Shown here piece after piece: positions 43,032-58,863 of a stretch of 64,000 nt of DNA. The stretch lies in assembly GCF_004366715.1 (NCBI RefSeq), contig NZ_SOQZ01000003.1, positions 315,001 through 379,000 on the forward strand, in the 5' to 3' direction. The notes under the pieces were generated by a model. It saw only the letters and a program-made list of their open reading frames with translations. It was not told where the DNA came from and did not search any database. Numbering within the stretch: position 1 is the first letter of the stretch; each line of letters opens with the position of its first letter. Source of the stretch: Meridianimaribacter flavus. Its GTDB lineage: Bacteria; Bacteroidota; Bacteroidia; Flavobacteriales; Flavobacteriaceae. The translations under genes were made by a program, and so were the position numbers.

Positions 43032-43727
43032 TTAAATGTTGTTTAACGCATCAACAAGTTGTGTCTTTTTATTTCTACTTAAAGGAATTTCATAAGCTCC
43101 AACTTCAACATTCTTACTGTTAAATCGGTCTACTTTGTCAAGATTTACGATATACGATTTATGAATTCTTAAAAACTTACCTTCAGGTAGTTCTTTTTCA
43201 AAAGCTTTCATTGTAGATAATACTACTAAGCTATTTTCTTCGGTTACTAATTTTACATAGTCACCAAGAGCTTCAATCCATTTTATATCTTTAATGTATA
43301 CCTTACGTTTTTTAAGGTTACTTTTAACAAAGATGTGCTCGCCATCAGTTTCATTAAAATCTAGCTTTAATTTATGCTGTTCTAATGCTTTTTCAACAGA
43401 AGTGTTAAAACGTTCTCTAGTGATTGGTTTTTGCAGATAATCGGTAGCATCATAATTGAAAGCCTTAAATGCGTATTCTGTTTTTCCTGTAACGAAAATA
43501 ATTTGGGGTTTGTTGTTAAGTACGTCTAAAAGTTCAAAACCATTTAAAACAGGCATTTCAATATCTAAAAAGATAAGGTCTACCTTATGAGTATTTAATC
43601 CGTTTTTTGTTTCTAAAGCACTACTGTATTCTGCAATAAGGTTAAGTGAGGAATGGTTCTCAATTAACTTTACAATAGATAATCGTTGGATTGCAGAATC
43701 ATCAACTACTACACAATTTAAAGTCAT
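43032..43727 (-). CDS. Orphan LytTR response regulator, candidate master of a T9SS regulon
   Basis: 231 residues from the ATG at 43727 (NCVVVDDSAIQRLSI); a longer frame to 43796 is rejected because it would run through the promoter. Receiver about 1-115, phosphoacceptor Asp near 54 in LIFLDIEMPVLNGFELL, FVTGKTEYAFKAFNYDATDYLQKP; LytTR DNA-binding domain about 130-231 (FVKSNLKKRKVYIKDIKWIEALGDYVKLVTEENSLVVLS; FLRIHKSYIVNLDKVDRF). No kinase gene adjoins it. Its own upstream region carries a direct repeat also found before three T9SS genes at 55-59 kb, suggesting autoregulation and a shared regulon. Confidence 0.92.
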   Translation of the reverse strand: MTLNCVVVDDSAIQRLSIVKLIENHSSLNLIAEYSSALETKNGLNTHKVDLIFLDIEMPVLNGFELLDVLNNKPQIIFVTGKTEYAFKAFNYDATDYLQKPITRERFNTSVEKALEQHKLKLDFNETDGEHIFVKSNLKKRKVYIKDIKWIEALGDYVKLVTEENSLVVLSTMKAFEKELPEGKFLRIHKSYIVNLDKVDRFNSKNVEVGAYEIPLSRNKKTQLVDALNNI

Positions 43728-43758: not shown

Positions 43759-43806
43759 CAATAGTACGAAAAATTCGGATAAAAACCAAAAAACATCGGT
43801 AAAGTG
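43759..43806 (-). promoter_or_regulatory. LytTR-type direct repeat D plus promoter of the orphan regulator
   Basis: Half-sites on the minus strand are CACTTTACCG (43797-43806) and GTTTTTATCC (43777-43786), separated by 10 b. A candidate -7 box TACTATTG (43759-43766) follows 10 b downstream; an alternative, TATCTTAA (43747-43754), would give a 22-b gap. Operator spacing matches sites A, B and C. Confidence 0.55.
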
Positions 43807-43864
43807 TTTCTTTTAACAAAATTTTAACACTATTGCGATAACTTCATTTTTCCTTTCAAAAATG

Positions 43865-43895
43865 TTGCCAGAATTAGAAATAATAGTTATTTTTG
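43865..43895 (+). promoter_or_regulatory. Sigma-A promoter of the rpsF operon
   Basis: TTG (43865-43867) and TATTTTTG (43888-43895), separated by 20 b, match the Bacteroidota -33/-7 consensus. Predicted start is about 27 b before the rpsF ATG. Confidence 0.65.
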
Positions 43896-43926
43896 CACCC
43901 ATTTTTAATTATAAAATTATATTTAT

Positions 43927-44265
43927 ATGAACCATTATGAAACTGTTTTCATCTTAAATCCCGTTTTATCTGAGACTCAGATAAAGGAAACAGTACAGAA
44001 ATACGAAGATTTTCTTGTTTCTAAAGGAGCGAAGATGATAGCCAAAGAAGATTGGGGCTTAAAAAAATTAGCTTACCCAATTCAAAACAAAAAAAGTGGA
44101 TTTTACCACTTATTTGAGTACACTGTAGATGGCGAAGTAATTTCTCCGTTAGAATTAGAATTTAGACGTGATGAGCGTTTTATGCGTTATTTAACAGTGA
44201 AATTAGACAAGCATGCTATTGCTTGGGCTGAAAAGAGAAGAACTAGAAACAAACAAAAAGCGTAA
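43927..44265 (+). CDS. rpsF: Ribosomal protein bS6
   Basis: 112 residues. Binds the central domain of 16S rRNA together with bS18. NHYETVFILNPVLSETQIKETV at the start and EFRRDERFMRYLTVKLDKHAIAWAEKRR are family-typical. First gene of rpsF-rpsR-rplI; unlike many bacteria no ssb or priB gene is inserted. Confidence 0.97.
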   Translation: MNHYETVFILNPVLSETQIKETVQKYEDFLVSKGAKMIAKEDWGLKKLAYPIQNKKSGFYHLFEYTVDGEVISPLELEFRRDERFMRYLTVKLDKHAIAWAEKRRTRNKQKA

Positions 44266-44268
44266 ATT

Positions 44269-44565
44269 ATGTCTTCAATTGAACAACAAGCAAAAGGAAA
44301 AAAAGATGGAGAAATTAGATATTTAACTCCATTAAATATAGATACCTCTAAAACGAAAAAATATTGTCGTTTTAAAAAGTCTGGAATTAAATACATCGAT
44401 TATAAAGATCCAGATTTCTTATTAAGTTTTGTAAACGAGCAAGGTAAGTTATTACCAAGACGTTTAACAGGAACTTCTTTAAAATACCAAAGAAAAGTAT
44501 CTGTAGCAGTAAAAAGAGCGCGTCACCTTGCGTTGATGCCTTATGTAGCAGATTTATTAAAATAA
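44269..44565 (+). CDS. rpsR: Ribosomal protein bS18
   Basis: 98 residues. Pairs with bS6 on the small subunit platform. [64 protein letters not shown] is diagnostic. Starts 3 b after rpsF. Confidence 0.97.
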
Positions 44566-44577
44566 AATAACATAACT

Positions 44578-45039
44578 ATGGAACTTATATTAAAACAAGA
44601 CGTTGAAAATTTAGGATTTAAAGACGATATTGTAACAGTTAAGAACGGTTATGGTAGAAACTTTTTGATTCCTCAAGGACATGCTGTTATGGCAACAGCT
44701 TCAGCTAAAAAAGTATTAGCTGAAACTTTAAAGCAAAGAGCTTTCAAAGAAAAGTCAATTATTGAAGAAGCTAACAAAACTGCAGAGTTACTTAAAGGAT
44801 TAGAAATTAAAATCGCTGCTAAAGCTGGTGCTGGTGCAACTGCTGGTGATAAATTATTTGGTTCTATTACTAATATAGACCTTGCTAATGCTTTAAATAA
44901 CCAAGGACATGCTATTGAAAAGAAATACATTTCTATCAATGGTGGTAACATCAAGCGTTTAGGTCAATACGAAGCTGTAATCAGACTTCACAGAGACGTA
45001 ACTGTAGATTTACCGTTTGAAGTTGTAGCAGAAGCTTAA
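44578..45039 (+). CDS. rplI: Ribosomal protein bL9
   Basis: 153 residues. N-terminal domain with ELILKQDVENLGFKDDIVTVKNGYGRNFLIPQG binds 23S rRNA; a long central helix leads to the C-terminal domain (LFGSITNIDLANAL). Last gene of the operon; a terminator follows. Confidence 0.97.
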   Translation: MELILKQDVENLGFKDDIVTVKNGYGRNFLIPQGHAVMATASAKKVLAETLKQRAFKEKSIIEEANKTAELLKGLEIKIAAKAGAGATAGDKLFGSITNIDLANALNNQGHAIEKKYISINGGNIKRLGQYEAVIRLHRDVTVDLPFEVVAEA

Positions 45040-45057
45040 TATTCAAAAATAATATCT

Positions 45058-45088
45058 TTAAAAGCCTCAACTATGTTGGGGCTTTTTA
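45058..45088 (+). terminator. Terminator after rplI
   Basis: AAGCCTCAAC / GTTGGGGCTT stem (one G-U pair), loop TAT, then a T run. Confidence 0.85.
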
Positions 45089-45107
45089 ATTACAAAAAAC
45101 ATTAGCA

Positions 45108-45581
45108 ATGAAATACGCTAGACTTACTAAAGAACAATTTGAAGAACTCCATAAAGAGTTTATAAACTTTTTAGCAACCCAATCTATCACTGCAGATGAA
45201 TGGGCAGACATAAAGGTTAATAAACCTGAAGTTGCCGAACAAGAGTTAGATGTGTTTAGTGATTTGGTTTGGGAAGGTGTGTTGACTAAAGTTAATTATC
45301 TAGAACATATATCGCCTCAACAAATGCATTTGTTTCATCTTAAAGAGAATGAAATGGAACTAATTGCTATTAAAATTAAAAATGAGACTACTGACTTAAC
45401 AACGAGCGAAGGTTTTGACTGGTTTAGAAACAACCTCTTGTCTGATGATGTTGAGTTACTCACTGCAAAAAAGACTTATACTGAAGACAAAGCCTTAGAT
45501 AAATTTAAATTAATACAACAAGGAGGCGTAATTACTAAAGGTGATTTATATAGGTATTTCGAGAACCTAATAAAGAAGTAA
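45108..45581 (+). CDS. Conserved small protein of unknown function (DUF6495-like)
   Basis: 157 residues, cytoplasmic, helical (KYARLTKEQFEELHKEFINFLATQSITADEWADI; EQELDVFSDLVWEGVLTKVNYLEHISPQQMHLFHL). I recall this as the DUF6495 family of flavobacteria, next to rplI in several genomes, but cannot check it. No catalytic motif is visible. Position after the ribosomal operon suggests housekeeping. Confidence 0.72.
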   Translation: MKYARLTKEQFEELHKEFINFLATQSITADEWADIKVNKPEVAEQELDVFSDLVWEGVLTKVNYLEHISPQQMHLFHLKENEMELIAIKIKNETTDLTTSEGFDWFRNNLLSDDVELLTAKKTYTEDKALDKFKLIQQGGVITKGDLYRYFENLIKK

Positions 45582-45616
45582 ATAGATTTCTTTATTTTTC
45601 AGCTAACAGTTAAGAA

Positions 45617-46858
45617 TTATTCATATCTCAACGACTCTACAGGATCTAGTTTTGCTGCTTTAACAGCAGGTAGTAATCCTGAAACTATAGCTACAACAAA
45701 TGCAATAGTGAATGCACTAAACATCGCTAACCAAGGTATAGCAAATTGAAATTTAGCTACTGTTGCTACTATCAACCCAATACACGTACCTAGGATAATA
45801 CCTAAAATACCACCTAGTTGTCCAATGATAATAGCTTCCATAAAAAATTGAAACGCTATTGTTTTTCGTTTAGCACCTAAAGCTTTTCTAACTCCAATTT
45901 CACGAGTACGCTCAGAAACCGAAACAAATAAAATATTCATTAGTGCTATTGATGACCCAAAAATGGTAACAATACTTATAATCCAAGCAGCCAAGTAAAG
46001 GTATTTGGTCATTTCACCAATACGATTTATAAGGTCATCGCTACGTTCTATTCCAAAGTTATTCTCTTCAATAGGATTAAGACCTCTAATGTTTCTAAAC
46101 AATAAGATGGCTTCGTCTTGTGCACCTTGCAAGAAATCTTTTTTGTCAACTTTAACGCTTAAACCGTAATTAATATTAGGGCTAGTAAATATACTTCTTG
46201 CTTTTTGTAATGGTATGAGCATTCGTAAGTCTTGGTTGTTTCCAAATGTAGACCCTTTAGATTTTAGCACACCTATCACTTTAAATTTTGCACCTCTAAC
46301 ACTTATGGTTTTGTTAATAGGGTTAACATCGCTTAATAGTGCTTTTTCTAAATCGCTACCAATAACACATACGTTGTTATTGTTGTGTACATCAAAATAA
46401 TTTAAAGCTCTTCCTTTTTCTATTTCAAGACCCGAATTTTGGATGTAATGCTCATTAACACCTAAAACCGCTACTTCAGGATCTGTTTTTAAGTTTTCGT
46501 GTTTTGCTTCTGCAGTTGAAGTGCCAAAAAATGAAATAGACGTTCTGGTGTAAGGAAAGTCATAAGCGTCTTCAAACGCTTTTACATCTCTATAACTAAT
46601 AATAGGGTTTATTTTTTGACGTTCGCCACCACTTTGTCGTTGTGCGTTAAACTCGTAACGCTGCAAGTTAAATGTGTTGGCTCCCATTGAAGAAAAATCA
46701 CTAGAAATAGTATTCTCTAAAGCCGATACACTACTTAAAATACCTACCAAAGCCATAATACCAATACCAATAATAAGTATAGTTAAAATAGTACGTAGTA
46801 ACTGGGTTCTTATAGAGTCAAAAGCAATTTTTATATTCTCTTTAGCGAGTGAAAACAT
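45617..46858 (-). CDS. MacB/FtsX-type ABC transporter permease
   Basis: 413 residues. An N-terminal membrane helix (TILTILIIGIGIMALVGILSSVSALE), a large periplasmic MacB_PCD-type domain (about 50-285) and three further helices near the end, with EIGVRKALGAKRKTIAFQF before the second-last pair, typical of MacB/LolE-like permeases. The ATPase partner is not in this window. Substrate unknown (lipoprotein, peptide or macrolide export are family options). Confidence 0.88.
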   Translation of the reverse strand: MFSLAKENIKIAFDSIRTQLLRTILTILIIGIGIMALVGILSSVSALENTISSDFSSMGANTFNLQRYEFNAQRQSGGERQKINPIISYRDVKAFEDAYDFPYTRTSISFFGTSTAEAKHENLKTDPEVAVLGVNEHYIQNSGLEIEKGRALNYFDVHNNNNVCVIGSDLEKALLSDVNPINKTISVRGAKFKVIGVLKSKGSTFGNNQDLRMLIPLQKARSIFTSPNINYGLSVKVDKKDFLQGAQDEAILLFRNIRGLNPIEENNFGIERSDDLINRIGEMTKYLYLAAWIISIVTIFGSSIALMNILFVSVSERTREIGVRKALGAKRKTIAFQFFMEAIIIGQLGGILGIILGTCIGLIVATVAKFQFAIPWLAMFSAFTIAFVVAIVSGLLPAVKAAKLDPVESLRYE

Positions 46859-46963
46859 AAATTAAGATATCATGTAAAAGGTTATGTTATAGTATAAGAC
46901 TACAAAAGCACAATAAAGTTACTATAAATTTGAAATAACTTGGCATTGCCTATAAAAATATAA

Positions 46964-46971
46964 TATTTTTG
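46964..46971 (+). promoter_or_regulatory. Candidate -7 box for hisS
   Basis: TATTTTTG with TTG about 21 b upstream (46940). It would give a leader of about 170 b before the hisS ATG at 47145, containing a repeat-like element. Confidence 0.4.
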
Positions 46972-47005
46972 TGCTGAATGAAATGAATTTACATGGATTT
47001 CATCT

Positions 47006-47090
47006 GTCACACTGAGCCTGTCGAAGAGTTTGTTTACGCAAGCAGATACTAAATTATAAGGTAGAATTAGATGATTGTGCTCTAAATGAC
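47006..47090. repeat. Intergenic repeat-like element upstream of hisS
   Basis: Starts GTCACACTGAGCCTGTCGAAG and ends AAATGAC. The opening matches a short dispersed sequence frequent between genes in flavobacterial genomes, and its ends resemble those of the element at 6870-6931. The rest of the 286-b gap shows nothing else certain. Confidence 0.45.
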
Positions 47091-47144
47091 AATAATAATT
47101 ATAAAGTTTCACTAAAAGAGATTCCCACTTTCGTAGGACATATT

Positions 47145-48515
47145 ATGGCACAAAAACCTAGTATACCAAAAGGCACAAGAGATTTTAACCCAATAGAGGT
47201 AGCAAAACGCAATTATATTTTTGACACTATAAAAGCACAGTTTCAGCACTTCGGGTTTCAACCTATTGAAACACCAAGTTTTGAAAACTCTGACACCTTA
47301 ATGGGTAAATATGGTGATGAAGGAGACCGATTGATTTTTAAGATTTTGAATTCTGGGGATTATTTGTCAAAGGTTGATAATAAATATTATTTAGATAAAG
47401 ATTCTAATAAACTTACACCTTATATCTCCGAAAAAGCCCTTCGTTATGACCTTACAGTGCCATTTGCACGTTATGTAGTACAGCACCAAAACGAAATTGA
47501 CTTTCCGTTTAAGCGCTACCAAATGCAACCAGTTTGGAGAGCAGATAGACCGCAAAAAGGACGTTTTAGAGAGTTTTACCAATGCGATGCTGATGTTGTT
47601 GGATCGCAATCTCTTTGGCAAGAAGTGGAGTTTGTACAATTATATGATGCAGTATTTTCGGCTTTAAAGCTAGAAGGAGTGACTATAAAAATCAATAACC
47701 GTAAAATACTTTCAGGTATTGCAGAGGTTATTGGTGCGCAAGATAAACTCATTGATTTTACGGTAGCTCTAGATAAACTCGATAAAATAGGAGAGGAGAA
47801 AGTAAAAGAAGAAATGCTTAGTAAAGGTATTTCTAAAGAAGGTATTGAAAAACTACAACCGCTTTTTGAATTGCAAGGTGATTTCTCAGAACAAATTGTA
47901 GCACTAAAAGCTATTCTTTCGGTTTCTGAAGAAGGTAAAAGAGGTATTGAAGAACTGGAGTTTATCAATACAGCAATTTCAGAATTAAAATTACAAACTG
48001 CCAACTTGCAATTAGACGTTACTTTAGCAAGAGGACTTAACTATTACACAGGAGCTATTTTTGAAGTGTCAGCTCCAGAAGGTGTAAAGATGGGTTCTAT
48101 TGGTGGAGGAGGAAGATACGACGACCTTACCGGAATATTTGGACTTAAAGATGTGAGTGGAGTAGGCATTAGTTTTGGTTTAGATAGAATTTATCTGGTA
48201 CTTGAAGAACTTAATTTATTTCCTGAAACTATATCAGAAAGTATAAAAGTGCTTTGTATTAATTTTGGAGAAGCTGAAGCGTTAACCTGTTTAAAAGCAA
48301 TAAAAGCATTAAGAGCTCATGGTATTAATGCAGAGTTGTATCCTGATGCTGCTAAAATGAAAAAGCAAATGAACTATGCCAACAAAAGAGCAGTACCTTA
48401 CGTTGTGCTTGTTGGTGAGTCTGAAATGAGTAGCAATACATTTACACTTAAAAATATGGCTAATGGCGAACAGCAGCAGCTATCGCTTGAAGATTTAATT
48501 ACTACTTTACAATAA
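47145..48515 (+). CDS. hisS: Histidine-tRNA ligase
   Basis: 456 residues, class II synthetase. Motif 1 ([11 protein letters not shown]), motif 2 ([27 protein letters not shown]), the histidine-specific [15 protein letters not shown], and motif 3 ([17 protein letters not shown]) are intact, with the C-terminal anticodon-binding domain ([17 protein letters not shown]). Complete. Confidence 0.97.
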
Positions 48516-48543
48516 AAAAAGCCCTGATTTCTCAGGGCTTTTT
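48516..48543. terminator. Bidirectional terminator between hisS and the giant T9SS gene
   Basis: AGCCCTGA / TCAGGGCT stem, loop TTTC, A run before and T run after; serves both convergent genes. Confidence 0.88.
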
Positions 48544-48575
48544 ATTTAGTTAAGATTTTAAAGATTTGGGAGAAA

Positions 48576-51500
48576 TTATTTAACTAAAACTTTCTTTGAT
48601 ACTGAACCGCTCACAGTATGAATTTTAATAATATAAGTTCCTGTACTTAAGTTCTTAACTTCATACTCAGAATTGTTGCTCTGAGGTATATTGTCAATTG
48701 TTGTAATAGATTGTCCTAAAATGTTTAGCATTTCCATTTGTTTAACTTCTAGTAATCCAGGGTTTAGTAAAACAATGGTTTTGGAAGTGTTATCATAATA
48801 AACATCTACTAGATTCAATTCATTGTCTTCAACACCCAATGCAGAGTCTTCTGCACTAAAGGTTATTTCATAAGTGTCTAGATATTCTCCAGCATCTAAA
48901 TAAAAATTAAAATCGCCTTCGCTTAAGTTATGATAAGCGTCTGTTATCTTGTTGTGAATGTAAACTGTTAAGTCTTCTGGAGCGTTTTGTAACGCATCAA
49001 TAGTAATGGTGTTCATACCATCAGTTTCAACCTTTATACCTAAAGGATATACTGTGTCTTCATTAGCTTCATTACTACCTTGGATAAGATATTTTTCGCC
49101 TTCAATCATCCAGAACATATCATCAATTTGGTTTTCATTTATCTTTCCATCGTAACCCCAATCAATATCTAAAGTTGCGTTTTCATCAATTGTAAGTAAC
49201 AGCTGTCTTCTAATGGTATTAACAGAGTTAAGCCCAAGTCTTAGTTTTAATCTGTCGTCAGAGCTGTCAACAGAATTAGTTGTTACATCATAGTCGCTAT
49301 CAGATGGACTTGATTGTCTCACAAATACTGATTGTGACCCACTTTCTCCATCGTAAGTTCCGTCTTCAATTCGGTAAATACGTTGGCCGTTATTGAAATT
49401 GATTTTACCACCAGCATCAGCTGATACGAAGAATCCTTGACTTACAGGAATATATCTTCCTGGACGTTTTACAGGAGTACCACCAGTACCAACATCAGGA
49501 TCGTTTGTTCCATAAGAAGAAGCTGGTAAGCCACCTGAAAGGTTTAAAGTAGCATAGCCACCTTGGTATTCAGATAACACGTGAGAGCCTCCTCCCCAAT
49601 GTTCCCAGAAGTATAATGTTCCTGTAATTGTTGAACCATTATCGTTAATAAACTGTAGTGCATCAATTGCAGAAGGGTATGGGTTACCAACTAGGTAATC
49701 ATTATTTACCGCTAGGTCTAGGTCGTTTGTGCCACTAAACCCAATATCTCCATTGTTAGGTTTTCCTAAGAACGTATAGTTTTGGTCTGTTAATATTGAA
49801 CCAGAACCAGGTCCTTTCATAGTAAATCCTTCACCAGCTAATAAGTTACCAGATTGACGAATGTGTTGCCATGATGAATAATCTCCTGAAGCTTGACTAG
49901 CAAATTTCCAAATCCAATAATCAGCAATTGTTACTGCAGGTGAGGTGTTTGATCCATTATATCCTGAAGAAGTAAAGACTATTGGGTTTGCGCCATTATC
50001 GTTGTACATAACATCTGATACAGTATAGCTATTATTGTTTGTAACTGAGCTTCCATTTCCAACAGGAGATGACCAATAGTTGTATGTAAAGGTATCTGCT
50101 GTTCCTTGTTGGTCGCGTTCTAAAGTACCTTCACTTTGTACATCAAGGTCACTATCTATAGTTTGTATTAATTGCGACTCACCTTCAAGGTCAATTTTGG
50201 CATTTGGTTGACCATTTCCTATAGATAAATAATGCGTTACAGTTACACCATTTCCTGTATGTGTTGCGTTGTTTCCTGTTACAGTCAGTTCATTGTTATC
50301 AACTAAAAGACCCAATAATAATCTGTTGTTGCTTTTTCCTGAAGGAAGAGAACTGTTATCCATAGTTATATTGTGAGAAGTTTCTACAATATTCCAATCG
50401 ATAGTTTGGGTATTATCCATTACAGAAACTGAACCAGGAGCATATTGTAATGATCCATTTAACCATGTGTTATTAGTGTCCCAGCTTCCATTGTTGTTAG
50501 ATATATAAGGAAGTGGAGCTGTTTGTCTATCTACAGTTCTTAGATGTCTTAATGCACCTTGATTACCATTACCAGATTCATCCTTAGTATTTGTGTACGT
50601 ATATCTAGTCATTGGGTAGTAGGCAGCTAAGCTAGACCATGGCACTGTACCAATGTCGTTTTTGGTAGGAGTAATTCCTCTGCTAATAAAGTAAGACCCT
50701 CCAACGAAACTAGAGTTGTTTTCTATTTCTTGATTCATTACAAATCGTAACTGGTCTTCTGTAAGTGCTACATCCCATATTCTAACTTCATCAATATTAC
50801 CTCTAAAGAAAGCTGTAGGAGTATTTTTGTTTGCAGCTCCAATATAGAATGATTGTGTTGTAGGTATTGGAGCAGTTCTACTAAAGGATGAATCCCTTAC
50901 TCCATCAATATATAGTGTTGCAGTACCAGATCCATAAATAATGGCAACATGATGCCATTCATCTTCTGGAATTGGTTGGGTGGATGAAAGTTGCTGTGTT
51001 GATCCTCCATTTTCCCATATAACATTTAACCTTCCAGAACTTGATATTTTAAAATCATAACCTTCAGTAAATGGTTCATTTCTTTTAGAAAGAATTGATG
51101 TATTGTTTGATCCAGACTCTCTGTTTATCCATGCAGATATTGTAAATTCAGAAGAATTAAGGTCTACAGCGTCTTCCATATCTATGTAGTCTGTACTTCC
51201 GTTAAAGTAAACTGATCTGGTGTAAACTCTTTCTGGAGCCCAACCAAAAGTAATGTATTTAGTGCCATCAAAATCATAATTAGCTTTTACAATTGGCTCG
51301 CCAATTTCGTTAACGTCTTCAGTCATTACTCTATAATCTGCTGTTGGGTCAAAATTAGGTGTGTCAGAAATAAACATTAAATAACGACCGTCTGGAGGAG
51401 TAGCTGTTCTAACAGCACTTCTTAGAATTGCGACTTCAACAGAAGGAATGTCTCCACCTCTTTCAACAACTTTCCAAGTTCTTGCTATTCCGTTAAATTG

Positions 51501-54500
51501 TACCCAAGTTGATAAACCTGGAGTTATGCTAGAGCTCATGTTAACATCAACAATTACAGCTGGATCATCTAAATCAACACCATCATTTCCCCAAATCAAG
51601 AATTGTTTGTCTTGTAATTGAGTGTCAGGGTTTAAGTTATTTGTGTCATATATGCTAGATATACCCATTGTAACAACACCTTGACCTCTGGTTCCTCCAT
51701 CTAAATCATTGTTAACACTTCTAGATTGTTTTTGTAATAAATCTGAAGCATCGTCACGCCCAATTCCTGCTATGTCATAATTAAACACGTCTTCACTAGG
51801 TGTTCCTGTATTGACATCCCAAATTACAGTTCCGTCACTGTCTACATAATCATGAGATGTACCATTAACTCCTAAAGTAATTCCATACTTAATCGCTAAA
51901 TAAGATTGAATACGGTTACGTTCTTGTGTTAAGTTTGCATCGTCTTTTCTAGATGAGAAAGTGATGATTTCACAAACTCTTGCATTCAATGTGGCTTCCC
52001 AACCTTCACTACGCCCAATCCAATATTTTGAGTCACTTACATTTAAAAATTCAACAACATCATTTTGTGCATATTCTATGTTGTTGGCATTGTAATAAAG
52101 CTCTTGTTGTGTTACAGCTGTATTGTTTCTTGCATTAATAATTCCTACATTATCATAAGATGTGTTTTGATCATATACTGCATATCCATCTCTATTAGGG
52201 CAACTTCCACCTGTGCTATACGTTCCAATGGCAAAAGCAATACTTTCATTACAAACACGACCAGTATAATCACCCATACCTATACCAGTTGCATCAGTTT
52301 CATTTGAGCTAGTATTAGCATCTCCACAAAAAGTATCCATAAACCCAAATGAATCATTTATAGCTGTATCATCAGGTATTAATACCACAAACATATCTTG
52401 GGTGTATAGACCACCATCACCTTCTAAAAATTGAGTGTTGGTATTGTCGTATGAAAAGTCAGAATCTAAATTAAAAGATGAAAATGTATTGTCAAACTCT
52501 ACTACTGGGTTGAAATTTACATTTCTGTAAGGATTATCATAATATGTTGGTTCTTGACCTGGCGTGTTTACTGTAGCATCGTTATCTTTACTTTGGTCAA
52601 TCCACAAACTAACGCTTTGTCCATCAGTATAGCCTAATCCGTCATTTCCTTTAAGCCATAACTCTAAATCGCTAGTAACACCTCCTGGAGCTGTAGAACC
52701 AGATCCTTCAATGTTGAAGGTGTAAGGATTTTCGTCACTATCATTGTTAGCTATGGTAACTGTAGCTGTACGTGTACCTACTGCACTTGGGTCAAAAGTA
52801 ATATCAAAAGTGGTACTGCTACTAGAACCAATTGTATTAGAAGGTATAGAGGTTACTGTAAAATCACTAGCATTGGTACCTCCGATTAATACATATGGAG
52901 AACTGCCTGTAAGGTTTAAGTCTAGTAAATTTCCATTGTTTTGTATAGTAAATGTTTTTATAATAGTTCCTCCTGTAACATTAGTATTACCAAAATTAGT
53001 ATTATCAGAAGGAGATGGAGTAGTGTCTCCACTCACTATTGTTGTTCCGTTTCCTTGTATGTTTATTTCTGGAGCAGTAGTGTACCCATTACCTTGAATA
53101 TTAAAAGTATATGGGTTTTCGTCGCTATCGTTATTTGCTATAGATACTATTGCTGTTCTTAAGCCTGCAGCACTAGGAGAAAATGTGATTGTAAATGTTG
53201 TGTTACCTCCTGCAGAAATTGAACCTGAAGGATTTGCAGTGAGCGCAAAGTCTCCAGGATGTAATCCGGAAATTGAAATATAAGGAGAAGGGTCTGTTAA
53301 ATTTAAAGTTGCTGATCCTGTGTTTTGAATGGTAAATGTATTTGCATTAGATCCTACAGATACAAATTCAGAACCAAAATCAGTGTCATCAGTAGCCGAT
53401 GGTGTTGTGTCATTGTTGTTTATGGTGTTACCATTTCCAACTAAGTTAATTTCAGGTTGTGGTGTGCCTGAAGTAATATTTATGGTGTAGTCTTCTACTT
53501 CACCATCAAAATTAGTTTCGCATGATGTAGGATCTGAATTATATTTAGCAGAAACACGCATTCTTGTGTTTCCTATTGTTGCTCCAATAGGAACAGTTAC
53601 ACTCAATGGAGAATTATTTGTAGCTCCATTTGTAACATTGTATGCGCTACCCATATCATATTCTTCACCAGAATCACCAAAGCTTCCGTTTTGGTTCCAA
53701 TCTATCCAAACTTTTGCATGTGCAGAGTAGCTTCCATCGGTATTAACATTGATCGTTAAGTTATATGAATTGCCTTGAGAAACTGAAGTTGAAATATGAG
53801 TGAAATCTTCGTAGCCTATATCTTTATTAGGGCCGTCACTGTTGTCTATAGTGTTAAATACAACTCTAGTAACTCCAGTTTCATATGAGGTGTTACCAGA
53901 TGATGCACAATACGTAATTGAAGGGCTGAAATTCACTACCTGAATCTCATGAGCCATAGTATTACCACTTCTATGAGCCCAATGTGCTGCTTGCGTGGTT
54001 GAGTTAAAGTAATAATTACGCCAGCCTCTACCATAGGCTGTACCACCGCCACTAGAGGTAGAGGTACCAATGATTAATGCTTCATTAGTACTGCCTAAAC
54101 CAGCAGATGAAATATTAATGCTTGTTTCACCAGAAGTATTACTCGTGTTAGTATATCTCGTAACTTGAATATTTGGGTTGTTTACTACGTGAACAAATTG
54201 GCGATTGCCATTGGTACGAGCATCATGCTCACTATGAAAAGCCCAAGAAACAGTTTGGTTATTTCCTCCAGGACTCATAACTGGCCAGTTATCTGCGATA
54301 GCATCGTCAGTACCATTATCACTCATGTTTCCTCTATGGTGCGTAAAAATCATAGCTTCACTCCAATCAGAAACACTAGCAGTTCCTCCAGAACTTCCAT
54401 TAGCATTCGTTCGTAAAGTGATGTTACCAGTATCTGTATTTACACTTCCAGAATCACCATGAAGTATGGTCCAGTTGCTACCAGTAAATTCTACCAAAGT

Positions 54501-55109
54501 GATATAAACAGTCACATTATCAGCATTTGAACCTTTTTGTACACGCATTGTGGATGAGTTTTCAAGATACGCAATTGCTGAACCAGAATCTGAACCAGCC
54601 GATGATGCGCTGTTTACAATACCAGTAATAAAAGGAATGCAATCGTTTGCGTTACTAATACCTGTTAAAGATTGAGTAACATTGTTAGTGCCTCCATTTA
54701 GTGTAATTGTATATCGACCTCTAACTATAAATTCATTAGCACCTCCTGGAGACCCTGTGTACTCCCAAACAGATGCGTTAAATTTAGTGTTATTGTTAGT
54801 TGAATTACCTTCTCTGTAATAAGTGACTGTATTGGTTGCTGTTAATCTAACAGCTCCAGATACATCTCTCCCAGGAGCAGTTGACGAATTTTCGTCAGAT
54901 CTACCAGCTTGAGCTAATCTGTTGTTATTATTTAATACAAAGGCATTATTTAGAGAAGAAACAGCTGTTATTGATGATGTAGCTCCTGTTCTTGGAACGT
55001 TTCTATCAAGATGTTGCACATTGAAATCTTGAGAAAAAGTAATAGTCGAAACTAAAAGTACACATAATATTATAAGGTACTTACATACTGTGAAAGTATA
55101 ATTTTTCAT
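48576..55109 (-). CDS. Giant modular surface protein with LamG domain and T9SS type A sorting domain
   Basis: 2177 residues. Signal peptide ending ITFSQ; an N-terminal beta region (about 30-400) that looks like an extracellular domain of unknown family; a GEVED domain (about 405-560, ending GEVEDYTINI); two choice-of-anchor-D-type repeats (about 565-810, each with PEIN, TFTIQN and NPYTFNI); a long region with many Asn/Thr/Ser; a LamG/concanavalin-like lectin domain (about 1310-1470: YFNGSTDYIDMED, ISAWINRESG, WHHVAIIYGSGTATLYIDGV); and a C-terminal module shared with two neighbours, then the type A sorting domain (ending SKKVLVK). Probable adhesin or polysaccharide-binding protein. Own promoter with direct repeat A. 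Confidence 0.88.
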   Translation of the reverse strand: MKNYTFTVCKYLIILCVLLVSTITFSQDFNVQHLDRNVPRTGATSSITAVSSLNNAFVLNNNNRLAQAGRSDENSSTAPGRDVSGAVRLTATNTVTYYREGNSTNNNTKFNASVWEYTGSPGGANEFIVRGRYTITLNGGTNNVTQSLTGISNANDCIPFITGIVNSASSAGSDSGSAIAYLENSSTMRVQKGSNADNVTVYITLVEFTGSNWTILHGDSGSVNTDTGNITLRTNANGSSGGTASVSDWSEAMIFTHHRGNMSDNGTDDAIADNWPVMSPGGNNQTVSWAFHSEHDARTNGNRQFVHVVNNPNIQVTRYTNTSNTSGETSINISSAGLGSTNEALIIGTSTSSGGGTAYGRGWRNYYFNSTTQAAHWAHRSGNTMAHEIQVVNFSPSITYCASSGNTSYETGVTRVVFNTIDNSDGPNKDIGYEDFTHISTSVSQGNSYNLTINVNTDGSYSAHAKVWIDWNQNGSFGDSGEEYDMGSAYNVTNGATNNSPLSVTVPIGATIGNTRMRVSAKYNSDPTSCETNFDGEVEDYTINITSGTPQPEINLVGNGNTINNNDTTPSATDDTDFGSEFVSVGSNANTFTIQNTGSATLNLTDPSPYISISGLHPGDFALTANPSGSISAGGNTTFTITFSPSAAGLRTAIVSIANNDSDENPYTFNIQGNGYTTAPEINIQGNGTTIVSGDTTPSPSDNTNFGNTNVTGGTIIKTFTIQNNGNLLDLNLTGSSPYVLIGGTNASDFTVTSIPSNTIGSSSSTTFDITFDPSAVGTRTATVTIANNDSDENPYTFNIEGSGSTAPGGVTSDLELWLKGNDGLGYTDGQSVSLWIDQSKDNDATVNTPGQEPTYYDNPYRNVNFNPVVEFDNTFSSFNLDSDFSYDNTNTQFLEGDGGLYTQDMFVVLIPDDTAINDSFGFMDTFCGDANTSSNETDATGIGMGDYTGRVCNESIAFAIGTYSTGGSCPNRDGYAVYDQNTSYDNVGIINARNNTAVTQQELYYNANNIEYAQNDVVEFLNVSDSKYWIGRSEGWEATLNARVCEIITFSSRKDDANLTQERNRIQSYLAIKYGITLGVNGTSHDYVDSDGTVIWDVNTGTPSEDVFNYDIAGIGRDDASDLLQKQSRSVNNDLDGGTRGQGVVTMGISSIYDTNNLNPDTQLQDKQFLIWGNDGVDLDDPAVIVDVNMSSSITPGLSTWVQFNGIARTWKVVERGGDIPSVEVAILRSAVRTATPPDGRYLMFISDTPNFDPTADYRVMTEDVNEIGEPIVKANYDFDGTKYITFGWAPERVYTRSVYFNGSTDYIDMEDAVDLNSSEFTISAWINRESGSNNTSILSKRNEPFTEGYDFKISSSGRLNVIWENGGSTQQLSSTQPIPEDEWHHVAIIYGSGTATLYIDGVRDSSFSRTAPIPTTQSFYIGAANKNTPTAFFRGNIDEVRIWDVALTEDQLRFVMNQEIENNSSFVGGSYFISRGITPTKNDIGTVPWSSLAAYYPMTRYTYTNTKDESGNGNQGALRHLRTVDRQTAPLPYISNNNGSWDTNNTWLNGSLQYAPGSVSVMDNTQTIDWNIVETSHNITMDNSSLPSGKSNNRLLLGLLVDNNELTVTGNNATHTGNGVTVTHYLSIGNGQPNAKIDLEGESQLIQTIDSDLDVQSEGTLERDQQGTADTFTYNYWSSPVGNGSSVTNNNSYTVSDVMYNDNGANPIVFTSSGYNGSNTSPAVTIADYWIWKFASQASGDYSSWQHIRQSGNLLAGEGFTMKGPGSGSILTDQNYTFLGKPNNGDIGFSGTNDLDLAVNNDYLVGNPYPSAIDALQFINDNGSTITGTLYFWEHWGGGSHVLSEYQGGYATLNLSGGLPASSYGTNDPDVGTGGTPVKRPGRYIPVSQGFFVSADAGGKINFNNGQRIYRIEDGTYDGESGSQSVFVRQSSPSDSDYDVTTNSVDSSDDRLKLRLGLNSVNTIRRQLLLTIDENATLDIDWGYDGKINENQIDDMFWMIEGEKYLIQGSNEANEDTVYPLGIKVETDGMNTITIDALQNAPEDLTVYIHNKITDAYHNLSEGDFNFYLDAGEYLDTYEITFSAEDSALGVEDNELNLVDVYYDNTSKTIVLLNPGLLEVKQMEMLNILGQSITTIDNIPQSNNSEYEVKNLSTGTYIIKIHTVSGSVSKKVLVK

Positions 55110-55157
55110 AAGCGGTTAAATTTTAGTTTGGGACTAACTAATTAATTAAAAGCGATA

Positions 55158-55205
55158 CAAATATATAAAAACACTCCATGAAATGCAAAAAAAACCGATA
55201 AAGTG
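55158..55205 (-). promoter_or_regulatory. LytTR-type direct repeat A plus promoter of the 2177-residue protein
   Basis: Half-sites on the minus strand: CACTTTATCG (55196-55205) and CATTTCATGG (55176-55185), 10-b spacer of mostly T. The -7 box TATATTTG (55158-55165) follows after 10 b. Start predicted about 44 b before the ATG. Confidence 0.6.
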
Positions 55206-55240
55206 TATTTGTTATTTGTAATTTATTGATATAAAGTTTT

Positions 55241-55276
55241 TTAAAAAGACTGCAAGCATAATTGTTTGCAGTCTTT
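55241..55276 (-). terminator. Terminator after the M14 peptidase gene
   Basis: AAAGACTGCAA / TTGCAGTCTTT stem (11 bp) with a 9-10 b loop, followed on the minus strand by TTTTT. Confidence 0.85.
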
Positions 55277-55294
55277 CTTTGAGGGCTTAATATA

Positions 55295-57817
55295 TTATTG
55301 CTTTACCAATCGCTTAACAAACGACGTATTTGTTTCACTGTCAGTTATTTTTAAAAAGTACGTTCCGCTAGATAATGAATTTAAATTGGTTAAATTTATT
55401 TCATTATTTGTAGGGGTTAAGTCTCTTAAATCTAATACTGAGCGTCCGCTAACATCATAAACATTAAGGTTTATATTTGTGTTTATGTTATTCAATTTTA
55501 TTGAAATATTGCTGTTGAATGGGTTTGGGTAAATCAACACATTGTTTTCATTAAATGTATCTGTGTTTAAAGTTGAATCTATAATATCAATAGTATAATC
55601 CTCAACTTCTCCGTAGCTAAATGTTTCACATGGGTCGTCAGCTGTATTTCCTGCACTATTATAATACTTCATTATAACACGCATTCTTGTTGTACCTAAT
55701 TTGGCATCAGGTGCATTAGGTACTGAAAAGGTTGTGCTTACTGGTGTCGTAGTGGAAGATGCACTTTCCATTATTTTTTCAGACGATTCAAAGGTGCCAT
55801 TATGGTTAAAGTCAATCCATACTGATACGGCTTCTCTGTATTGAGTACCTGTCCAATATTTGGTAACACTAATATTGTTTCCAGAAGAATTTAAATCTAA
55901 TGTAAAAACTGTGCTTGTTAAATCTGAATACCCTGAAGATGTAGTTGATTGAGTGTTATTACTGCTACTATTTAGGGTGACATTACTAATGTATTCATCT
56001 CCAATATCTCCACCTTCTGCATCACAATAGTTAACACCTGTTGTAGAGAATTGTTGAGAAGTAGAATAACTTGTATTATTAGATCCACAATAAGAGCGAA
56101 CTTGAAACTCATAAGTTGTTTCAGGGTCTAAACCACTTATTTGATATGGGTTTGTAACACTTGTAACTTCAATCCATGAAGAGGCACCAACTACTCTATA
56201 TCTAATGTCAAAATCATCAGCAGTAGAAGCTGTCCAAGATGCATTAGTTGAGCTTGAGTCTGTTCCTGTAGTTGTTAAACCAGTAGGAGCTGATGCTGTT
56301 AACGGAGTTAAAAGAATATCAGACAGTACTAAAGTTTGATAATCAGAAATTGTTTGATTTGTTAGTGTAAAAGATTGGTAACATGGAGCTTCAAACAAGA
56401 TGTCGTAAGTTCCAGATTTCACAGGTCTATAATAATCTCCAAAAGGAGCGCTACTTATTGTGTGCGAGCCTACAGCATCGTGACCAACTAGTGTAACTGT
56501 TGCTTCTACTGGGTTATTAGACACAGCGTCTTTTACAAATCCTTGAAAACCGTAAGTTCCTTGTATTAAATATTCAATTAAAGCTTCACGGTTATAATCC
56601 CAATGATCATCTAATTGTGATGCAGGTATCACTTTAGTATTTGAAAGCTCAATAGTTACTTCTTTACACTGTTTGTAAAAGTTCATGTAATCTTGACGAC
56701 CACCATATACTTGATACCAATCAGCACCTTCTGTAACTCCTGGCCATTGATAGTTACTATAAGTAGCGTCCATATATCCAGAAGGACTATTGTTTTGACA
56801 GTTTACAGCGTACTCTTTACTTACTAAGAAAAACCAATCGCTATCAGCATGATCTGTATGCGTATTATCAAAAGGATAGTTAACAACTTCGGTTCCACCA
56901 TGAAAATTAGCTGAAAGCACAAAATGATTATCTTCTGCTAAAGCTAAGAAATGTTGGGTTTCAATTTGATATTCTTCTCCATCAGGATGAGCTCCTGCAA
57001 CATTATCTGGATAGTTTCTATTTAAGTCCACATTATTAGCGTTTGCACGACGTGAGTTTGCTACAGATGTGTTAGAAGCACTATTGTAATAAGTTCCATC
57101 TGGATTTGCCATTGGGTTTATCCATATTTCAGAGTTATTGATAAGACTTGTAATTCTAGCATTATCTGGGTGAGATGGTGTTTTATAAGCAGTTATAAAA
57201 TAATCAATTAAATCTAACATTAAAGGATAACCAGTAATTTCGTCACCATGCATTGAGGAGGTGTACATTAATTTTGGCTCAGCTTCTTCAGTAGCGATGT
57301 TGTCAGATAGTTTAATAAATAGTAAGCGCTTGTCTCCACCGCCTACACCTTCAGTGGTTCCGCCAATATCAACTAATTCACAAATATCAGGATGCATTGT
57401 AGCAAATGCATACATTTGAGCTTCATAGTCTGCGTAAGTTGGGTAATAAGTTAAAGGAAAAGTTAATGGGTATGAACCTTCAGTCGAGTTTACAGTATTT
57501 ACCTGATTACTCATAACTATACCATAGGCTTCATTGTCTACTGCGTTTACATTGAAACTAAGGTTTCTTTCTAAAAATAAGTTGAATTGTTGTGTATTAG
57601 CCCAAGCATAAACTGTTTTAGTAGAAGGGTCATAATTAAGTATAGATAATTTATCTGTAAACTCTTGAAGTTCAGAAACATCTTCTATTTTAAAATCAAA
57701 ATAAACTTCTTTTTTCGAATCTAAATATTGTTCGGCTTTTTCTAAGCTAGTTTGCGCTTTGGCATTTATGCCTGCTAAACAAAGTAGCGTTACAAGTAGA
57801 AGGGTAGTTTTTTTCAT
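55295..57817 (-). CDS. M14-family zinc carboxypeptidase with fibronectin III and GEVED domains, T9SS type A
   Basis: 840 residues. Signal peptide ending NAKAQ. The M14 catalytic domain (about 115-420) has the zinc ligands His190 and Glu193 in SMHGDEITGY, then NPDG, DLNRNYP near 264, His in SANFHGGTEVVNYPF near 304, and the catalytic Glu in KEVTIELSNTK near 389. Next are a carboxypeptidase-regulatory-like segment (about 425-500), a fibronectin III domain (about 505-590), a GEVED domain (about 600-745, ending GEVEDYTIDI) and a type A sorting domain (ending VKRLVKQ). A secreted carboxypeptidase. Promoter with direct repeat B. Confidence 0.9.
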   Translation of the reverse strand: MKKTTLLLVTLLCLAGINAKAQTSLEKAEQYLDSKKEVYFDFKIEDVSELQEFTDKLSILNYDPSTKTVYAWANTQQFNLFLERNLSFNVNAVDNEAYGIVMSNQVNTVNSTEGSYPLTFPLTYYPTYADYEAQMYAFATMHPDICELVDIGGTTEGVGGGDKRLLFIKLSDNIATEEAEPKLMYTSSMHGDEITGYPLMLDLIDYFITAYKTPSHPDNARITSLINNSEIWINPMANPDGTYYNSASNTSVANSRRANANNVDLNRNYPDNVAGAHPDGEEYQIETQHFLALAEDNHFVLSANFHGGTEVVNYPFDNTHTDHADSDWFFLVSKEYAVNCQNNSPSGYMDATYSNYQWPGVTEGADWYQVYGGRQDYMNFYKQCKEVTIELSNTKVIPASQLDDHWDYNREALIEYLIQGTYGFQGFVKDAVSNNPVEATVTLVGHDAVGSHTISSAPFGDYYRPVKSGTYDILFEAPCYQSFTLTNQTISDYQTLVLSDILLTPLTASAPTGLTTTGTDSSSTNASWTASTADDFDIRYRVVGASSWIEVTSVTNPYQISGLDPETTYEFQVRSYCGSNNTSYSTSQQFSTTGVNYCDAEGGDIGDEYISNVTLNSSSNNTQSTTSSGYSDLTSTVFTLDLNSSGNNISVTKYWTGTQYREAVSVWIDFNHNGTFESSEKIMESASSTTTPVSTTFSVPNAPDAKLGTTRMRVIMKYYNSAGNTADDPCETFSYGEVEDYTIDIIDSTLNTDTFNENNVLIYPNPFNSNISIKLNNINTNINLNVYDVSGRSVLDLRDLTPTNNEINLTNLNSLSSGTYFLKITDSETNTSFVKRLVKQ

Positions 57818-57849
57818 CAGTTTTACGTGTTTAATGAATTATTATGGCG

Positions 57850-57908
57850 CTAATATATAATTAATTTTTAAAAAACATCCATAAAATGCAAAAAAATCCG
57901 ATAAAGTG
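57850..57908 (-). promoter_or_regulatory. LytTR-type direct repeat B plus promoter of the M14 peptidase gene
   Basis: Half-sites CACTTTATCG (57899-57908) and CATTTTATGG (57879-57888), the clearest pair, with a 10-b T-rich spacer. A -7 box TATATTAG lies 21 b downstream (57850-57857), i.e. one helical turn further than in sites A and D. Confidence 0.6.
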
Positions 57909-57945
57909 CAATTTTTTAATTAATTCGTAGTATTTCGATTACGTT

Positions 57946-58764
57946 TTAATGCACTAATAAAAGTTTGCTAAGAGAAGCTTTATTGTTGTTTTCAATCTGT
58001 ACAATTACTGTACTAGATTGTATATTGTTAATTGTAGTTTTAAAGCTAGAAGAGAAAATGTTTTGCTTTTCAAAAAGTAGTTGACCATTAATACTGTAAA
58101 CTTTTAACGAGTTAATTGTGGTTGAGTTTTGTGTGTCAATATTAATTTGAGAAGTGTTTTTTATGTATCTAATACTAGCAGATTCTAACCCAAACTCATC
58201 AATAGATAATTGTGCTGAGCTATTGGCAAAGTTTATTAAAGAAAGGTCGTTGGTAAAAGTTATATGATACCTGTTTAAGTATTCTCCACTGTAAAGTGAG
58301 TTTATATAGTTGCTATCATTAATTGAGGTAAAGGTATCTAAATATGAATCATATACATACACGTCTATTTCGGTTTCAAAATTTTCTAGTGAATTCAATG
58401 CAATTTGAATTTCGCCTGAGTTGCTCAAAAACATTCCTAAAGGATATTGTTTTGAAATATCAAACTCGCCTACACCTTGAATGATATAGTTTTGATCGTT
58501 AATTCTCCAACTTAAATCATCGGGAAGGTTTTCAATGTTTAAGGCATCATAACCGTAATCAACATCATCAGTAGCTGAATTATCAGAAGTAAAACCTAAT
58601 AAAAGGTGTCTGGTATAACCTAATGGAGTGACAAAGTCTACTCTAAGACGTTGTATAGTGCTAGATTGAGTTTCTTGGTTGCTAGTGTTTTGGCTATTGG
58701 TATTAGCAAATACAGCAATGCTTAGTAATAACACAAGCAGTGTTAAGTAGGTAGTTTTATTCAT
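57946..58764 (-). CDS. Stand-alone copy of the C-terminal module of the neighbouring giant protein
   Basis: 272 residues. Signal peptide (LTLLVLLLSIAVFA) and then a domain that aligns with the C-terminal about 250 residues of the next gene upstream (HLLLGFTSDN; VDYGYDA; YIIQGVGEFD; SLENFETEIDVYVYD; YHITFTND). The final sorting-like domain is weaker (ends SLSKLLLVH, not KxxVK). It has a signal peptide and promoter of its own, so it is probably a functional small secreted protein derived by partial duplication. Function unknown; direct repeat C lies upstream. Confidence 0.78.
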   Translation of the reverse strand: MNKTTYLTLLVLLLSIAVFANTNSQNTSNQETQSSTIQRLRVDFVTPLGYTRHLLLGFTSDNSATDDVDYGYDALNIENLPDDLSWRINDQNYIIQGVGEFDISKQYPLGMFLSNSGEIQIALNSLENFETEIDVYVYDSYLDTFTSINDSNYINSLYSGEYLNRYHITFTNDLSLINFANSSAQLSIDEFGLESASIRYIKNTSQINIDTQNSTTINSLKVYSINGQLLFEKQNIFSSSFKTTINNIQSSTVIVQIENNNKASLSKLLLVH

Positions 58765-58805
58765 TTGATTTGGGGTTAAATGAACATAATATGTTTAGTT
58801 GCAGG

Positions 58806-58863
58806 CTAATATATAAGAAATAATCAGTTTTATCTATTAAACGCACAAAAAATCGATGAAATA
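58806..58863 (-). promoter_or_regulatory. LytTR-type direct repeat C plus promoter of the 272-residue protein
   Basis: Half-sites TATTTCATCG (58854-58863) and CGTTTAATAG (58834-58843), 10-b spacer; -7 box TATATTAG (58806-58813) after 20 b. The weakest of the four sites by base match but with identical spacing. Confidence 0.5.

Follow-up and report, generated by a model that had tools for sequence, protein, structure and literature searches.

The window (the whole 64,000-nucleotide stretch of DNA that was analysed) carries on its minus strand the gene of an orphan response regulator and three genes for proteins with a strong or weak C-terminal sorting domain of the type IX secretion system (T9SS). 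Each of these four genes is preceded by a direct-repeat site. In the list below, E-values refer to R1, a sequence-only model of 26 sites from other genomes.

43032..43727, minus strand: orphan response regulator gene, 231 aa, receiver and LytTR DNA-binding domains (Pfam)
43777..43806, minus strand: direct-repeat site before the LytTR gene, a diverged form, proposed to be autoregulatory; fourth best in the window, 13th in the genome (E 0.026)
48576..55109, minus strand: 2177-aa T9SS type A cargo, GEVED, laminin-G-like (TIGR04183, 35.3 bits, cut-off 23)
55176..55205, minus strand: direct-repeat site before the 2177-aa cargo gene; top site of the genome with R1 (E 4.8e-9)
55295..57817, minus strand: 840-aa T9SS type A cargo, M14 zinc carboxypeptidase, fn3, GEVED (TIGR04183, 53.9 bits, cut-off 23)
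57879..57908, minus strand: direct-repeat site before the 840-aa cargo gene (E 7.1e-8)
57946..58764, minus strand: 272-aa protein whose C-terminal T9SS sorting domain is weak (sub-threshold matches)
58834..58863, minus strand: direct-repeat site before the gene of the 272-aa protein (E 1.0e-6)

Both domains of the regulator score over their cut-offs (PF00072, 2.1e-19, 70.1 bits; PF04397, 4.8e-19, 68.8 bits). Its gene is flanked by priA (40575-43028) and rpsF (43927-44265) and has no kinase neighbour. By eye, the receiver features the motifs VVDDS and LIFLDIEMP, including the phospho-acceptor Asp; VDDS and LIFLDIEMP are kept in a Flavobacterium orthologue. The regulator is strongly conserved: of 149 genomes of the family, 55 (the present one included, and each of a different genus) carry a copy of 90-100% identity, 55 further genomes one of 60-71%, and 39 have none at 1e-85. 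No role for this conserved protein was found in the literature searched. As for the other three genes, the original prediction counted all of them as T9SS cargo genes. Two of them are over the cut-off, but the C-terminus of the third (57946-58764) gives matches below the cut-offs only (NF038113, 1.8e-4; TIGR04183, 0.011, 15.6 bits versus a cut-off of 23).

LytTR proteins bind direct repeats about two helical turns apart before their target promoters and their own gene. A shared repeat had been described in the four promoters of the window, and this observation was confirmed: the four 30-base sequences and their half-sites are present on the minus strand at the positions listed above. A weight matrix built from the 26 other-genome sites and run on both strands ranks exactly these four sites first to fourth in the window (47.0, 44.0, 39.4 and, for the regulator promoter, 21.1), the next-best score being 5.3 and the best score of the reversed-column matrix 15.2. 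A 27-site foreign matrix, which includes a match lying inside a gene by eye (G012, C10:306795), agrees with it (46.6, 43.8, 39.7 and 20.8; next 5.2; reversed 14.4). The strict pattern TTTATCGNTTTTTTTNGCRTTTNATGG, derived from the cargo sites of the window, has three matches with up to three mismatches in the 3.2-Mb genome, namely the three cargo promoters, all in the window; the backwards control has no match in this genome at the same stringency. The LytTR-gene site played no part in the choice of the pattern and does not match it within three mismatches. It is the cleanest test because the foreign sites came from that pattern. It is also a diverged site, the weakest of the clear ones and 13th genome-wide, and the three strongest sites of the genome, by R1 and by the strict pattern, neighbour each other. 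Coincidence as the source of the four sites was rejected on the strict-pattern, reversed-model and foreign-matrix controls. Another T9SS gene lies upstream of this cluster (58930 and on beyond the window), and no clear site was found for it (best score 5.5 in a 12-kb stretch with 764 N).

Outside its own genome, the strict pattern was found 28 times: 12 of 36 further family members contain it, and none of 23 genomes from elsewhere in the order does. Reversed, it matched none of the 60 genomes. R1 was built from 26 of these 28 matches, the omitted ones being the G012 match mentioned above and one G028 match without a locus. In the own genome R1 identified 12 matches with E ≤ 0.0033, followed by the promoter of the regulator. 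Occurrence at random density had been set beforehand as the outcome refuting the original prediction; R1 gave 18 matches at E ≤ 0.1 in the genome and the reversed model gave 0. Across the 149 genomes the reversed model yielded at most four matches in any genome (best E 3.8e-4), and some of its best matches fall within the conserved LytTR gene. Ten R1 matches in the own genome are below 3.8e-4, under looser filters than in the reversed-model run. The R1 E-values are rough: the reversed model also yields one to four matches at E ≤ 0.1 in 100 of the 149 genomes, so any single site of the own genome with an E-value above about 3e-4 is uncertain.

The number of sites differs with the class of regulator. 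Among the 149 genomes the median number of R1 matches (E ≤ 0.1) is 12 where the regulator copy is 90-100% identical, 4 where it is 60-71% identical and 1 where there is none (in rank tests the first class, with the own genome omitted, differs from the other two at 1e-10 and 4e-15, uncorrected for phylogeny). G110, whose assembly is 87% complete, has ten matches and no close orthologue (best 36% identity); an assembly gap is a possible reason, as 13% is missing. In eight more distant genomes, 18 of the 26 sites were inspected and 14 of these have an ORF close behind, mostly with a signal-peptide-like start by eye.

The consensus of the half-site, taken from the 80 best other-genome sites, is TGCATTTYATCG. 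The half-sites had originally been described as 10 bases long. Those sequences are present as described, but they are a cut of a longer unit formed by two 12-bp direct half-sites 20 bp apart. The column profile of the 80 sites has a self-correlation of 0.64 at offset 20 and of at most 0.29 at the other offsets tried (8-26); the 20-bp spacing was built into the search model and, since the sites were picked by that model, it is not an independent result. A CG closing the first half and a TG opening the second one are found in 80 of 80 of these top-scoring sites, and the TGCA ahead of the first half was absent from the first pattern.

About one or two helical turns downstream of the site lies a TAnnTTWG box, which we take to be the Bacteroidota -7 promoter type. 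Its start is found 9-11 bp past the site 28 times, 20-22 bp past it 19 times and at other offsets five times among the 80 sites, whereas shuffling gives an expectation of 0.13 per position over all of them. The bases of the box are outside the model, so this phasing is independent of the site search. Both spacings occur in the window, 10 bp for the genes at 43032-43727 and 48576-55109 and 20 and 21 bp for the other two:

43759..43766, minus strand: -7 box TACTATTG, 10 bp after the LytTR-gene site
55158..55165, minus strand: -7 box TATATTTG, 10 bp after the site at 55176..55205
57850..57857, minus strand: -7-like box TATATTAG, 21 bp after the site at 57879..57908
58806..58813, minus strand: -7-like box TATATTAG, 20 bp after the site at 58834..58863

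An activator that sits on one face of the DNA and contacts RNA polymerase would be expected to show two distances about one helical turn apart. A further sequence, TGTTAAA, is conserved just 5′ of the regulator's site (L237-L272). It has two copies in the window (43812-43829) and is also present upstream of two other sites of the own genome (L150 and L152).

All 11 close orthologues of a first set, this one included, have the site before the gene. A set of 36 close named orthologues, which partly overlaps these 11 and includes those of Winogradskyella, Psychroserpens, Algibacter, Olleya and Bizionia, shows both half-sites in register before 35 of the genes with a score above 5 (above 10 for 32 of the 36); one (L257) is without the distal half. 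In keeping with the -7 box, ATTGTCG is found upstream of all 36. Column averages are 0.65-1.0 over the site and the -7 region versus 0.41-0.57 further upstream, and the reversed control gave no score above 10. None of 44 more distant orthologues has a site of the same orientation before it. An opposite-strand copy with a score of 8.3-29.6 is found in the LytTR-rpsF gap of 11 Flavobacterium-like loci and one of Nonlabens, and the remaining 32 of the 44 have no clear copy on that strand either. The 12 opposite-strand copies point away from the regulator; at the locus where this was read (L309) the motif faces rpsF, which hints at a link with the ribosomal-protein operon. Of the 34 close genomes represented among the 80 best sites, 21 have one of these sites within 40 kb of the regulator.

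For each of the 80 best foreign sites, a script favouring long ORFs and signal peptides chose the ORF behind it. These ORFs are complete in 63 cases, run off the end of the stretch in 12 and are missing in five, so the count of sorting domains spans 63 of the 80 sites. The original prediction had called for a scan of the genome and its relatives for matches lying before T9SS genes and orthologues of the regulator. Such matches precede both: with E ≤ 0.01, the 63 complete proteins comprise 32 of T9SS type A, six of type B and five of PID-CTERM, some of these sorting-domain matches lying under curated cut-offs, and the 35 of 36 orthologues have been given above. As a base rate, the own 3.2-Mb genome has 72 type A and 14 type B domains that pass the cut-off. 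Tiny PID-CTERM-like proteins recur behind the site (at four foreign loci and at C1:116025 of the own genome), and only one of them (L206) is over the curated cut-off. No paper on PID-CTERM was found in the literature searched. A CCCAAA at most 45 nt before the start codon was observed for 27 of the 63 genes behind a site that encode 150 aa or more, incomplete ones counted too, versus 5 of the 107 remaining ORFs on the same strand at these loci (L157-L236); it is a second shared element, perhaps acting on translation. An Rfam search of six target loci found the Flavo-1 RNA only (RF01705, 54.6 bits, L146:3785-3860, plus strand).

Genes of several kinds are found behind the other sites of the own genome. 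One site precedes a 434-aa protein with a signal-peptide-like start, behind which a T9SS type B protein and then a PorP/SprF protein are encoded; another precedes a 1607-aa choice-of-anchor-L T9SS type B protein. Short proteins are encoded behind others: one of 63 aa with a PID-CTERM-like end (by eye), two of 57 and 88 aa with signal-peptide-like starts, and one of 42 aa whose relative lies behind a site in another genome. The 41-42 aa ORFs of this kind, of the form M(K)NVAPNLPxPT...KKxFML, are directly 3′ of the site in the own genome (C1:252162) and at one other locus (L219). The 57-aa ORF (site at C1:503743) is followed by genes for a TPR histidine kinase and a response regulator. One more site falls within an ORF, at its 3′ end, and a large HYR-domain protein is encoded about 410 bp further on.

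Several own-genome sites have no T9SS gene downstream, namely one in the porX-tsaE gap (C2:178164-178195) and others in intergenic stretches without a long ORF. A site next to the 3′ end of porX and directed into it is also seen in three other genomes. No -7 box was found by eye at the usual distance from the porX-gap sites, which could serve an antisense transcript or an inverted control of tsaE. Behind the site at C1:959604 there is an ORF-less intergenic stretch of less than 200 nt that ends, by eye, in a hairpin and a T run, and this stretch is a candidate small RNA. The limit of the regulon to a local cluster, as first drawn, was too narrow. Genome comparison otherwise lends the prediction partial support, the motif being genome-wide and family-wide, phased to the -7 box, located mostly before exported proteins and present in numbers that track the regulator's conservation.

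We regard the family-wide cis element as real and the orphan LytTR protein as a strong candidate for its regulator, which would add a new regulon to a family of regulators that is already known. Judging from sequence, the repeats are probably the binding sites of the regulator encoded at 43032-43727, which would switch on both its own gene and a set of genes for exported surface proteins, T9SS cargo in the main. A phosphorylated dimer of the regulator would bind the two TGCATTTYATCG direct half-sites, two turns apart on one face of the DNA, and sit over or just upstream of the position where a -33 element would be. From there it would recruit RNA polymerase to the -7 box about 10 or 20-22 bp downstream. 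Binding by this regulator, its dimerisation and phosphorylation, and activation rather than repression are what we infer. The proposed regulon would exceed the cluster of the window: a T9SS-B / PorP-SprF operon would belong to it, as would small exported proteins, PID-CTERM-like ones among them, and some sites that have no evident gene; its range would be the Winogradskyella-Psychroserpens-Algibacter-Olleya group of Flavobacteriaceae.

The same sites could be real activator sites of an exported-protein regulon that are read by another factor, a LytTR paralogue or some other direct-repeat binder, with the LytTR regulator as one of its targets. The diverged sequence and 13th rank of the regulator's own site, the presence of further LytTR paralogues in these genomes and the G110 matches without a close orthologue all agree with such a factor. 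We nevertheless think it unlikely: the gap next to the regulator gene bears the motif in two clades and in differing orientations, the number of matches follows the conservation of the regulator (co-occurrence was scored for this regulator alone), and direct repeats two turns apart suit LytTR proteins as generally known. A part of the promoter that needs no protein, such as a UP-like A/T-rich element or one specific to a sigma factor, shared by surface genes with strong expression, would account for the T-rich core and for the phased distance to the -7 box. It would not be expected to have a CG and a TG invariant in the 80 top-scoring sites, a 20-bp repeat, two alternative distances about one helical turn apart, or a presence that tracks one regulator, and we consider it quite improbable.

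That the three cargo promoters became alike by local tandem duplication, the LytTR-gene site being there by chance, is hardly credible. The three strongest sites of the genome do adjoin, as such an origin would have it, but the motif is also found before other kinds of genes elsewhere in the genome, 12 of the 36 further family genomes contain the strict pattern, and a conserved footprint lies before the regulator gene. Tandem duplication as the whole cause was rejected on the strict matches in other genomes and on the genome-wide sites.

Control by the orphan LytTR regulator, if true, would amount to a master switch for the cell exterior in marine flavobacteria, in a group that is large and mostly marine. 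A cargo regulon defined by its sites, together with a named candidate regulator, would make it possible to predict the surface secretome from sequence data and to switch it experimentally. A broader version, which we find rather doubtful, extends this role to an outer-surface master switch in the Winogradskyella-Algibacter branch, the regulon having diverged in Flavobacterium and its relatives. The switch would govern giant T9SS adhesins and enzymes, the T9SS-B / PorP-SprF operon, PID-CTERM and tiny exported proteins and possibly a small RNA and a porX antisense transcript, and would couple surface output to ribosome synthesis via the rpsF gap.

The regulator shares the combination of receiver and LytTR domains with ComE and with AgrA, AlgR and VirR. 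ComE (4cbv) matches its residues 49-228 and is the only solved relative found that spans both the receiver and the DNA-binding domain. Known LytTR members follow the rule of two-turn direct repeats, and the putative sites described here are at an offset of 20, a spacing preset in the search. The TGCATTTYATCG half-site differs from the familiar consensuses of other LytTR members. The present system is also unlike these members in that the gene is an orphan between priA and rpsF, that the proposed targets are T9SS and other exported proteins and that the promoters are of the Bacteroidota -7 type. The best NCBIfam match of the regulator is BtsR (NF008677), a LytTR response regulator, with 121.8 bits; this is far under the curated cut-off of 246, and identity with BtsR was rejected. 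In the literature searched, mostly non-subscription and including passages of PMC10197871, PMC7440613 and PMC8515946, no description of T9SS cargo genes as a LytTR regulon was found.

The two-component control tied to type IX secretion is that of PorXY-SigP in Porphyromonas gingivalis (PMC4800418, PMC7712824, PMC5005315, in the portions available). These describe an action of PorXY-SigP on T9SS component genes (PMC4800418, PMC7712824); the title of PMC5005315 states that PorX does not directly regulate those genes. PorX of the present genome is a separate protein at another locus (NF052313, 856 bits), and a PorX-type identity of the LytTR regulator was rejected, as it matches NF052313 over residues 33-141 only, with 31.1 bits for a cut-off of 300. 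The transcriptional control of T9SS, as described in the same partial sources, is that of PorXY-SigP on machine components in one oral pathogen, whereas here it is the cargo genes that bear the site.
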